Below the pieces are notes generated by a model. It saw only the letters and a list, made by a program, of their open reading frames with translations, had not been told where the DNA came from and searched no databases. Positions 29,436-33,160 of a stretch of 64,000 nucleotides of DNA are shown piece after piece. Within the stretch, counting starts at the first letter, position 1. Each line of letters begins with the position of its first letter. Both the position numbers and the translations under genes were made by a program. Source of the DNA: Symbiobacterium thermophilum IAM 14863 (GTDB lineage Bacteria; Bacillota; Sulfobacillia; Symbiobacteriales; Symbiobacteriaceae); assembly GCF_000009905.1 (NCBI RefSeq), contig NC_006177.1, positions 558,001 to 622,000 of the forward strand, given 5' to 3'.

Positions 29436-30368
29436 TCAGAGCCAGGGGCCGGCCACCGCCAGCAGGTGCTCCACGTAGTGTCCGATGTCGAACCAGCGGC
29501 ACTCCACCGCAACCGGCACCCGCTGCTCCACCATCTCGATGGCCTGGCGGGGGTTCAGGGCGTCGTAGCGGGGGTGGTACACCTCCGTCCAGGGCGGCAG
29601 GTCCGGGCGGCCCGCCGGGGCGATGGGCGTCGCCCCGAGCAGGTACGCCTCGTAGAGGGCCAGGGTGAGGCTGCCGCCGGTGGTGACGGAGATGGCCGCC
29701 TGCGCCCGGGCCAGCAGCCGGTAGTAGTCCTCATGGGGGAGCCGGCCCACCTCGATGCCCATCTGCCGCCACAGCTCCACCGGATAGTAGGAGAGCGGGT
29801 CCACCGGCGAGGCGATGAAGACCCGGTAGCCCCGGTCCATCAGCTCGAAGGCCATCCGCACCGACAGGTAGGGCTGGTAGAACTCGTTGAGCCGGCCGGG
29901 GAAGACCACCAGCCTCTCGCGATCCGGGCCGGGCTTCAGCTCGGCGATCACCCGGTTGATCAGGGTGTGGTCGTAGGGGAAGCCGGCGGCGACCACCTGG
30001 GCGCGCGACCCCGCGGGCAGGTACCGCTCGCCCCAGGGGACCATGGACGGGTTGGTGACCAGGATCGCCGCCAGGGAGGGGTGGCTGTAGATCCAGAGGT
30101 CGGCGGGGTCGTAGGCGTTGGTGAAGGGGTTCCAGATGTCGTGCTCGTGGATGATGACGTGCTCCGGCGGCTCGGCCGCCTCCAGCAGCTGTTTCTGCAC
30201 GGTGTAGCGGGTGAAGAAGACCGGGCCCCGGGGCCGCTCGGGCATGCGGGGCGAGTAGTCGTAGGGCACCCCGGCCTCGTCCAGCCCCATGCGGAGGCCG
30301 GCGAGGAAGTTGGGGTACCAGGCGGTGGGATCGTGGGGATCGTAGACCACGTGTAGCACGGTCATCAT
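29436..30368 (-). CDS. Glycosyltransferase-like protein (GT-B fold suspected)
   Basis: 310 residues, no exact family recognised. 'VLHVVYDPHDPTAWYPNFLA' at the N-terminus, 'VVAAGFPYDHTLINRVI' and 'VFPGRLNEFYQPYLSVRMAF' in the middle, and 'LALYEAYLLGATPIAPAGRP' near the end resemble the second Rossmann domain of group-1 glycosyltransferases, where a Glu in a 'G..l.e.....g.P' context contacts the nucleotide sugar. It begins 18 bp after the ABC-2 permease and is probably its last operon partner. The start could be 30368 or 30365 (adjacent ATGs); GGAAAGG is upstream. Confidence 0.65.
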   Translation of the reverse strand: MMTVLHVVYDPHDPTAWYPNFLAGLRMGLDEAGVPYDYSPRMPERPRGPVFFTRYTVQKQLLEAAEPPEHVIIHEHDIWNPFTNAYDPADLWIYSHPSLAAILVTNPSMVPWGERYLPAGSRAQVVAAGFPYDHTLINRVIAELKPGPDRERLVVFPGRLNEFYQPYLSVRMAFELMDRGYRVFIASPVDPLSYYPVELWRQMGIEVGRLPHEDYYRLLARAQAAISVTTGGSLTLALYEAYLLGATPIAPAGRPDLPPWTEVYHPRYDALNPRQAIEMVEQRVPVAVECRWFDIGHYVEHLLAVAGPWL

Positions 30369-30386: not shown

Positions 30387-31079
30387 TCACCTGGTGGTTG
30401 CCTGGCGCCTCAGGATGCGGGCGTCGACCGCGAGCAGCAGCGCGGTGTAAGCCAGCATCACCGCGGCGTGCTGCGCCACCGGCACCGGCGCACCGGTCCA
30501 GCCGCCCCACATCAGCTCCTGGACCGGCCGGGTGGGGAGCCACCGCATCACCTCTGCGACGGCCAGGCCGGAGTCCTGCCAGGGGATGACGGTTCCGCCG
30601 ACCAGCACGGCCAGCACCGGCGTCCGGTAGAGGGAGGAGGTCTTCAGGTCCCGGGCCACGATGCCCACCAGGGCGCCGGACGCGGTGGCGAAGCCGATGG
30701 CGAGGGCGATGCCCAGCAGGAGCACCAGCGGCGCTCCGGGCGGCCGCCGGAAGACGAGCAGGATCAGGACGCTCATCGAGGCGGCCAGCGCCACGCCCAC
30801 GAACGCCTTGGCGCCGATGATCTCCAGGGGCCGGACCGGGGTGACCAGCAGGGCCTCGAGGGTGCGCCGTTCTTTCTCCTCCACCAGGGAGTTGACCGTC
30901 ATCTGCCAGATGCCGGAGTAGATGGAGACGATCAGGACCACGGGGAGGAAGTCGGCCGTACCCTCCCCATCGAGGGCGTAGATGGCCGCCATGCCCAGCA
31001 TCATCGCCAGGAACATCAGGATGCGGCGGTTGCGCTTCAGCGCCCACAGCTCGCCGCGGACCAACCAGACAAAGCGCAT
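30387..31079 (-). CDS. ABC-2 type transporter permease
   Basis: 230 residues, about six membrane helices. 'SGIWQMTVNSLVEEKERRTLEALLVTP' carries the ABC-2 coupling motif (EKE-RRTLE) found in NatB and YxlG-like permeases. It pairs with the ATPase immediately upstream (stop and start share a base near 31079). An export role for a drug, sodium, lipid or surface compound is typical of this class; the substrate is unknown. Confidence 0.9.
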   Translation of the reverse strand: MRFVWLVRGELWALKRNRRILMFLAMMLGMAAIYALDGEGTADFLPVVLIVSIYSGIWQMTVNSLVEEKERRTLEALLVTPVRPLEIIGAKAFVGVALAASMSVLILLVFRRPPGAPLVLLLGIALAIGFATASGALVGIVARDLKTSSLYRTPVLAVLVGGTVIPWQDSGLAVAEVMRWLPTRPVQELMWGGWTGAPVPVAQHAAVMLAYTALLLAVDARILRRQATTR

Positions 31080-31786
31080 CAGCAGCCCCTCCTCGTCAAC
31101 TGGATGAAGGCGTCGGTCAGGGAGGGGCCGTGCCGTGCCTTCAGCTCGGCGGGGGTCCCGCAGGCGATCATCCGCCCCCGCTGCAGGATGCAGACCCGGT
31201 CGCAGAGGGCCTCCACCTCGGCCATGTCGTGGCTGCTCAGCAGGATCGTGATCCCCTGGCCGCGCAGGTTGCCGATCAGCCGGTGCAGATCGTCGGTCGC
31301 CAGCGGGTCGAGGCCCGACGTGGGCTCGTCCAGGTACAGCAGCCGGGGCCCGTGCAGGAGGGCCCGGGCCAGGGCCACCCGCTGGCGCTGCCCCTTGGAG
31401 AGCCGGCCGGCCAGCCGGTCCCGCAGGTCGGCGATGTCCATCTGAACCATCGCGTCGCGCACCGCCTGCTCCCGGACGCCGAAGAGGCCTGCGAAGAGCA
31501 ACAGGTTTTCCCGGACGGTGAGGCTGTCGTAGAGCAAGCCGCCGTCCAGGACCACCCCCATCTGCCGGCGGACCGGCTCGCCGCGCTGCCAGGGATCCAG
31601 CCCGGCCACCCGCACCTGGCCCTGGGTGGGTCTGGCCAGGCCCGCCACCAGCCGGAGGGTGGTCGTCTTGCCGGCGCCGTTGGGGCCCAGCAGCCCGAAG
31701 ATCTCGCCCTCGTGAACCTCCAGGGTCAGGTCCTCCAGAGCCGTCACCGGGCCATAGCGTTTGGTCACGTGAAGCAGTTCGATCAC
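31079..31786 (-). CDS. ABC-2 transporter ATP-binding protein
   Basis: About 235 residues from GTG 31786, preceded by GAGGTGAG; the frame is open upstream to 31960 but that part is Pro/Arg/His-rich and overlaps the direct repeats, so I exclude it. All ABC motifs are intact: Walker A 'GPNGAGKTTTLRL', signature 'LSKGQRQRVALARAL', Walker B 'LLYLDEPTSGLD', and H-loop 'LLSSHDM'. This contrasts with the degenerate ATPase of the upstream regulator. It forms an operon with the permease and probably the glycosyltransferase-like gene. Confidence 0.95.
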   Translation of the reverse strand: MIELLHVTKRYGPVTALEDLTLEVHEGEIFGLLGPNGAGKTTTLRLVAGLARPTQGQVRVAGLDPWQRGEPVRRQMGVVLDGGLLYDSLTVRENLLLFAGLFGVREQAVRDAMVQMDIADLRDRLAGRLSKGQRQRVALARALLHGPRLLYLDEPTSGLDPLATDDLHRLIGNLRGQGITILLSSHDMAEVEALCDRVCILQRGRMIACGTPAELKARHGPSLTDAFIQLTRRGC

Positions 31787-31842
31787 GCCTCTCACCTCGG
31801 CCCCATTTTGCCGGAGCGCGGGAGGCGCATCACTCTTTGGAC

Positions 31843-31916
31843 GACGACCGGTACGGCGCCAGGACCAGTGGTGCCGCGGCGGGGACGAGTGGTGCAGGCA
31901 GGCGGACGACCGGTGC
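31843..31916 (-). promoter_or_regulatory. Four phased direct repeats, candidate LytTR operator
   Basis: Read on the plus strand, four related 12-mers occur at 31843 (GACGACCGGTAC), 31863 (GACCAGTGGTGC), 31884 (GACGAGTGGTGC) and 31905 (GACGACCGGTGC), spaced 20, 21 and 21 bp, i.e. two helical turns. On the transcribed strand the outer copies contain CCGGTCGTC, one base from the known AlgR site CCGTTCGTC. They sit between the LytTR regulator gene and the ABC operon. Confidence 0.75.
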
Positions 31917-31953
31917 ACGGCCGGGGCAGGCGGGGCGGCCGACGGCGGCGCGT

Positions 31954-33018
31954 TCACCATCCCAGCAGTTCTTTCAGCTCCGCCACGCGGTGCTTGCTCA
32001 GCGGGACGTCGCTGCCGTCCTTCATCCGTAGGGAGAAGCTGCTGCGGGTCCAGGGGATGATCTCCTTCACGTGCGCGAGATTGACGAGGTAACCGCGGTG
32101 GGCCCGGAAGAAGCCGTGCGGGGCCAGCCGCGCCTCCAGCTCGGCGAGCGTGAAGGAGGCGGTCCAGTCTCCCTCATCCGTGTGCAGGTAGACGCCCTTG
32201 TCCTGGGCGTAGGCGTACAGGATCTCCGCCGGCGAGAACAGTACCACACGCTCGTCGCGGCGGGCGGCGATCTGCGCCACGCGGGGCGGGACTTGCCCGG
32301 CGTCCGGAACGCGACCGGTCACGTCGGCCCGGTCCGAGCCGTCCCGGGCTGCGCCGCGGCGCTCCGCATCGGGCGCCGCCGGGGATTGGCCGGCGCCGAC
32401 GAGCCGGCCGCGCTCCAGGTAGCAGACGCGGGTCGCGGCGCGCACGGTGCGGGGATGGCCGAACGTGGTGAGCAGGATGCCCTTGCCCTCTTCGGCCAGG
32501 GCGCTGAGCGCGGCCTGGATGATCTCGGCGCTCTCCAGGTCGCTGTCTCCCAGCGGTTCGTCGAGGACGAGGAGGGCAGGGTCGTGCAGCAGCGCCCGGG
32601 CGATGCGCAGCCGGGCCGCCTCGCCCGGCGACAGGTCGGCACACAGCCGGTGAGCGACCGGTGCCAGCTCCAGCGCCGCGGTCACCTCCTCCGCGCGCCG
32701 CCGGGGCAGCGACCAGAGGCCCGCAGAGAGCGCCAGCGTCTCCCACACGGTGTGGTATGGGCTGAGCCCCCAGGTTGCCCCTGCGAAGCCCACCTTCGCC
32801 CGGGCCTCGGGGGTGTCCGGACGGCAGCCGCAGATGCGGACGTGGCCGCGGGAGGGAGACTCCTTCCCCGCCAGCAGCCGCAGCAGGGGATCCTTGCCGT
32901 TGCCGTGACTGCCCACCAGGGCCAGCGACTCGCCGGCGGATACGGTCAGGCTGAGGCCGTGCAGTCCGTCCGGGTGGTGCAGGTCGGCGATTTCCAGCAG
33001 TGTCGTCAACATTATCAC
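31954..33018 (-). CDS. Fusion of a degenerate ABC ATPase domain with a LytTR DNA-binding domain
   Basis: About 354 residues from GTG 33018 (AAGGA 8 nt upstream). Residues ~5-210 are an ABC ATPase fold, but key motifs are altered: Walker A reads 'GSHGNGKDP' (Asp for Ser/Thr), the signature reads 'LSPGEAARLRIARAL', the Q-loop Gln is not seen, and the H-loop position reads 'LLTTFGHP'. Walker B 'LLVLDEPLG' is intact. After a Pro/Ala/Arg linker, residues ~255-354 are a LytTR domain: 'ILYAYAQDKGVYLHT', 'FFRAHRGYLVNLAHVKEI' and 'PLSKHRVAELKELLGW'. There is no receiver domain, so the ATPase domain may be the sensor. It is upstream of, and probably controls, the ABC-2 operon. Confidence 0.88.
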   Translation of the reverse strand: MIMLTTLLEIADLHHPDGLHGLSLTVSAGESLALVGSHGNGKDPLLRLLAGKESPSRGHVRICGCRPDTPEARAKVGFAGATWGLSPYHTVWETLALSAGLWSLPRRRAEEVTAALELAPVAHRLCADLSPGEAARLRIARALLHDPALLVLDEPLGDSDLESAEIIQAALSALAEEGKGILLTTFGHPRTVRAATRVCYLERGRLVGAGQSPAAPDAERRGAARDGSDRADVTGRVPDAGQVPPRVAQIAARRDERVVLFSPAEILYAYAQDKGVYLHTDEGDWTASFTLAELEARLAPHGFFRAHRGYLVNLAHVKEIIPWTRSSFSLRMKDGSDVPLSKHRVAELKELLGW

Positions 33019-33160
33019 CCGTGCATTCCTTCGCTTCCCCGGAGCCGTTTCCTCCACCGGTCCGGCCATACCGCGAGGGGGTATACCGGCGTCTCTAGAG
33101 CAGGAGACTAGTCCACCAGCCGGCCCTGCGGCCGGACGGGAGAGAAGGAGGGAACGGCCT

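Follow-up and report, generated by a model that had tools for sequence, protein, structure and literature searches.

A four-site LytTR-type repeat array as the probable operator of an ABC exporter operon next to an ABC-LytTR fusion regulator gene in Symbiobacterium thermophilum

AlgR/AgrA-type response regulators possess an N-terminal receiver domain and a LytTR domain that acts on direct-repeat sites, the consensus half-site of AlgR being ACCGTTCGTC. In the BceABS-type bacitracin transporters with flux sensing, it is the transporter that signals to transcription, via a histidine kinase. Closest to the locus described here are the LytTR Regulatory Systems, in which the regulator is paired with a membrane inhibitor and two 9-bp direct repeats with a period of 21 bp are located upstream of the regulator; the S. 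mutans systems HdrRM, BrsRM and SMU_433/434 are linked to ABC genes (PMC6193735). The repeats of these systems display a strong bias to a position 10 bp upstream of the -35, and the S. pneumoniae sites read ACCACTTAC-12-ACCACTTGC with a 21-bp period (PMC6193735). Three-repeat operators belong to the haem-based CO sensor RcoM (PMC9670170) and to CoxC, which has an MHYT sensor domain and acts as a repressor, its three repeats overlapping the -35 (PMC11347149). LytTR operators with two and with three repeats are already known (PMC6193735, PMC11347149).

The window considered here is the whole stretch of 64,000 nucleotides that was analysed from the genome of S. thermophilum IAM 14863, a single contig of 3,566,135 bp. 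All genes around the gap that carries the repeats are on the minus strand. In operon direction the features are as follows, with G001, G002 and G003 denoting related genomes of the Symbiobacteriaceae:

31954-33012, minus strand: gene for an ABC-LytTR fusion regulator of 352 aa, with ABC_tran at residues 17-154 and LytTR at 255-350 (Pfam)
31905-31916, minus strand: LytTR half-site 1 (promoter-distal), GCACCGGTCGTC, its position conserved in G002
31884-31895, minus strand: LytTR half-site 2, GCACCACTCGTC, its 10-mer identical in G002 and G001
31863-31874, minus strand: LytTR half-site 3, GCACCACTGGTC, from the repeat scan and orthologue comparison
31843-31854, minus strand: LytTR half-site 4 (promoter-proximal), GTACCGGTCGTC, 20 bp from site 3
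31828-31833, minus strand: predicted -35 position GTGATG (3/6 against TTGACA), which a 17-bp spacer would place 10 bp past the last 9-mer
31805-31810, minus strand: -10-like hexamer CAAAAT (4/6), 33 nt past the last half-site
31791-31798, minus strand: ribosome-binding site GAGGTGAG of the exporter ATPase gene, recognized from the sequence and conserved in orthologues
31079-31786, minus strand: gene for a DrrA-like ABC exporter ATPase with GTG start at 31786 and intact Walker A (ORF and domain matches)
30387-31079, minus strand: gene for an ABC-2 type permease (domain match)
29436-30368, minus strand: gene for a 310-aa protein without Pfam match, the last of the exporter operon (ORF)

ORFs of 308 codons, similar in size to the 310-aa gene, come after the permease in both orthologous operons. 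By eye, the 310-aa protein is glycosyltransferase-like.

The array consists of four 12-bp direct repeats (31843-31916), which start at 31843, 31863, 31884 and 31905, follow each other in operon direction as GCACCGGTCGTC, GCACCACTCGTC, GCACCACTGGTC and GTACCGGTCGTC with start-to-start steps of 20/21/21 bp (counted from the lowest coordinate), and each occur once in the 64 kb. A preliminary description of this DNA had already placed four repeats in this spacing on one helical face, and both statements hold, as the exact 12-mers were located in the window and the repeat offsets lie within 0.1 turn at 10.5 bp per turn. When the window was scanned for sets of four 12-mers in steps of 20-22 bp, the top periodic score of the gap, 58 of 72, was the best anywhere, and 3000 dinucleotide-preserving shuffles of the gap never equalled it (highest 48). 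While the units share 8-11 of 12 positions pairwise, the 8-9-nt spacers between them show no comparable mutual similarity, which rejects a simple tandem duplication and indicates separately maintained sites rather than a young duplication.

Read on the minus strand, the half-sites conform to ACC[AG][CG]T[CG]GTC, close to LytTR/AlgR sites. Against the AlgR consensus, half-sites 1 to 4 score 9, 8, 7 and 9 matches in ten, which leaves the outer ones with one mismatch in ten bases; the label 'AlgR-type' given to them earlier is thus loosely right, with the correction that the ABC-LytTR fusion, rather than a response regulator like AlgR, is the likely binder. The two middle half-sites begin with ACCACT, the same six bases as the S. 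pneumoniae sites (PMC6193735). Both the arrangement, direct half-sites of 9-10 bp about two helical turns apart, and the resemblance to the known LytTR consensus are those of a LytTR operator.

The gene preceding the array codes for a regulator in which a LytTR domain (E 1.6e-25) is fused to an N-terminal ABC ATPase domain. The DNA-contact motif FFRAHR (FxRxHR) is preserved, and both R303 and H305 are invariant across the 32 homologues, the contact role of motif and residues being taken from earlier work (PMC4227749). Pfam recognizes only ABC_tran and LytTR and hence no N-terminal receiver domain; the protein shares the LytTR domain and the direct-repeat sites with the AlgR/AgrA-type response regulators, but an ABC-like domain replaces their receiver. 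The structure model has high confidence except in the linker (mean pLDDT 89), and the modelled ABC domain matches solved ABC ATPases including LptB, MacB and BceA. Its Walker A is degenerate (GSHGNGKD versus GxxGxGK[ST]) and not that of an active ATPase. Among the 32 homologues Walker A is intact in four and absent or broken in 28, and Walker B is mostly EE, not DE, in the Bacilli group; judged from these motifs, the domain probably serves as a sensor or scaffold and not as a motor, which suggests a pseudo-ATPase sensor. Within the genome, Walker A is degenerate in the regulator of the operon in the window (operon A) and intact in that of the paralogous operon B, a pair that is a within-genome series towards a pseudo-ATPase.

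Three LytTR genes are present in the genome, namely the neighbour of the array, the paralogous ABC-LytTR gene (B) and a gene for a LytR-type response regulator beside a LytS-like kinase, and both ABC-LytTR genes each come with an array. A genome-wide motif scan, as had been proposed, located three matches of the strict pair pattern in the 3.57 Mb, all inside 31843-31916 and nowhere outside the array, and no match in the genome for the reversed pattern as a control. The relaxed pattern CCVSTYRTC-N10-13-CCVSTYRTC occurs at three places in the genome (this array, the gap after the paralogous B gene and one other), with likewise three genome matches for its reversed control. In three relatives, eight of nine matches of the relaxed pattern fall within ABC-LytTR gaps, a specificity test that is supportive rather than fully blind, as the pattern was devised after the arrays were seen; with the Bacilli genome pattern, five of seven matches do so. 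Upstream of the regulator gene in the window the relaxed pattern has no pair match, the arrays being located after the regulator gene.

Orthologous gaps of three related genomes possess three to five LytTR-type sites: four in G002 (steps 21/21/20), five in G001 (20/21/21/20, the outer ones decayed) and three in G003 (21/20). The gaps of the paralogous operon B (L055:2343-2375) have three half-sites at steps of 10/11 bp instead of 21, so that the outer two are 21 bp apart, an arrangement conserved across three species. Half-sites are not the same in the A and B arrays (ACC..TCGTC versus GCCAGTTGTC), and the LytTR domains differ likewise (RAHRG versus RSHKA).

The array lies about 10 bp upstream of the predicted -35 with 33 nt to the -10, and the orthologues are alike; for a promoter that is itself a prediction, this distance from array to -10 is the one seen where LytTR proteins activate. 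The best -10-like hexamer of each of the seven Symbiobacteriaceae gaps stands past the last half-site by 33 nt in the A group and by 34 nt in the B group and G003, although one B gap has an equally good hexamer at 31 nt. Directly after the hexamer come the ribosome-binding site and start codon of the exporter ATPase gene. The weak -35 and the -10 with only four of six matches are points against activation; a weak -35 is, on the other hand, what an activator-dependent promoter would show.

Beyond the family, a profile search detected ABC-LytTR proteins in 60 of the 299 genomes sampled from one order of Bacillota. Of the 24 loci from a genome scan, only L041 was such a fusion. An ABC ATPase gene comes next after nearly all ABC-LytTR genes examined. 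In 32 distant gaps, mostly from Bacilli, repeated 8-mers counted without any motif are in excess at lag 21 (43 versus 3.7 +/- 2.9), with further excesses at lags 20 (17) and 42 (25). A Gibbs search of the distant gaps retrieved the motif CTCCATTCAC at 20/21-bp steps, with a median best-pair score of 20.7 in the gaps versus 3.1 upstream of the regulator, 2.4 at the regulator end and 1.0 in the ABC gene; as this motif was trained on the gaps themselves, the lag count is the independent test. A -10-like hexamer stands at exactly 33 nt in 21 of 30 distant gaps, and the half-site core CCA-TC is common to these gaps and the array in the window. The motif CTCCATTCAC does not rank the array among the best places of the window by score, and a sequence motif across the classes was dropped for this reason; it is position, period and promoter distance that are conserved across classes, not the exact sequence. 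With 2-5 sites in each homologous gap, four is one value of a variable number and not a special state; the preliminary description had suggested that four sites might mean cooperative binding or two overlapping control states.

Past the last repeat of the distant gaps (L078-L107), by about 6 nt and upstream of the -10 at 33 nt, a conserved TTTAATGC-like box is seen, which matches TATAAT in at least four of six positions in 24 of 31 gaps and may be a second promoter or an unusual -35 region. The closely related L089 and L090 are the only loci with a good half-site pair also upstream of the regulator, which suggests autoregulation in that lineage only.

Considering these observations, the array is very probably the switch by which the ABC-LytTR fusion controls the exporter, and most likely the fusion binds the adjacent four sites and activates its own exporter operon. 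Strong support for the earlier proposal that the ABC operon is under the control of LytTR half-sites comes from the adjacent LytTR gene, the specificity in the genome, the conservation in orthologues and paralogues and the promoter geometry. According to this model, which is built on sequence comparison, the protein would occupy the tandem half-sites on one face of the DNA, the bound array would end 10 bp before the weak -35 and 33 nt before the -10, and the regulator so placed would recruit RNA polymerase to the gap promoter, whereby the exporter operon would be switched on. We infer that the protein binds directly, that it activates, that it uses more than two sites cooperatively and that it senses via its ABC-like domain. 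Possible, if rather doubtful, is a transporter-sensing switch, in which the pseudo-ABC/LytTR fusion pairs with the real ATPase of the exporter or binds nucleotide or drug, and exporter activity would thereby set the occupancy of the multi-site array from which the exporter operon is driven. This shares with BceABS the idea of a transporter that signals to transcription, BceA being among the structural matches of the ABC domain, but where BceABS signals via a histidine kinase, the ABC-like domain is here covalently joined to the DNA-binding domain.

Since the three LytTR repeats that overlap the -35 serve CoxC for repression (PMC11347149), the main rival to activation is that the same array is an operator where the ABC-LytTR protein represses the exporter promoter until released by a signal. 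The TATAAT-like box 6 nt past the last repeat in most distant gaps would put the last repeats over the promoter, but the array in the window ends 10 bp upstream of the -35 position, which is activator geometry (PMC6193735), and the weak -35 fits an activated promoter, so that repression appears unlikely. A LytTR protein other than the neighbour might also occupy the array, either the paralogous ABC-LytTR protein or the response regulator of LytS/LytR type; both are present in the genome, and the response regulator adjoins a LytS-like kinase. Against such a binder, which we consider very improbable, stand the arrays that accompany ABC-LytTR genes across lineages and the half-site differences between A and B that parallel those of the LytTR domains.

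Two further readings dispense with an operator altogether. The frame of the exporter ATPase stays open across the gap in the window (ORF 31079-31960) and in G002, as if the repeats were an N-terminal coding extension of the ABC gene, but the orthologous ORF of G001 begins downstream of the repeats, 20-nt steps break the frame, and ribosome-binding site and GTG come only after the array; the extension was rejected on the G001 orthologue and the 20-nt step and is hardly credible, and the gap is, as had been stated earlier, without a gene of its own. Located between two genes of one likely transcription unit, the repeats could act in the RNA as a leader structure or attenuator, yet the predicted fold of the gap is less stable than that of shuffled versions (z +2.5), none of the 200 shuffles doing worse than the gap itself, and a hairpin is not what direct repeats separated by unrelated spacers would lead one to expect. 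An RNA structure was rejected for this low stability, and such a role is extremely implausible.

With activation by the ABC-LytTR fusion as the preferred reading, the locus resembles the LytTR Regulatory Systems in its 9-bp direct repeats, the period of 21, the position about 10 bp upstream of the -35 and the frequent linkage to ABC transporters. It differs in that an ABC ATPase domain is part of the regulator itself, where those systems pair the regulator with a membrane inhibitor; the genes next to the regulator gene code for an ABC ATPase and an ABC-2 permease and none for such an inhibitor. It further differs in having three to five sites, not two, and in an array that stands between regulator gene and exporter, whereas the repeats of those systems precede the operon of the regulator. 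With the three-repeat operators of RcoM and CoxC it has more than two direct repeats at two-helical-turn spacing in common (PMC11347149), while their sensor domains and half-site sequence differ and CoxC represses.

A search of the open-access literature gave no account of ABC-LytTR fusion regulators; a description elsewhere is possible. Nor did the literature searched describe an array with three to five sites that accompanies such a fusion and is situated between regulator and exporter. If real, the one-protein transporter-sensing switch of ABC-LytTR type would be widespread and apparently undescribed. Sequence evidence would now tie this little-studied regulator class to a concrete DNA target, and the conserved geometry predicts ABC-LytTR regulon and promoter. 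It becomes testable whether a dead transporter ATPase domain can sense for a transcription factor controlling an exporter.

With respect to the region on the other side of the regulator gene, an inverted repeat ATACC-N7-GGTAT (33068-33084) is located upstream of the ABC-LytTR gene, before a divergent thioredoxin gene. It is kept in both orthologues (CATACC...GGTATG) and looks like a candidate operator of another regulator. The same divergent intergenic region holds a second inverted repeat, GTCTC-N8-GAGAC (33091-33108), which is largely kept in G002.
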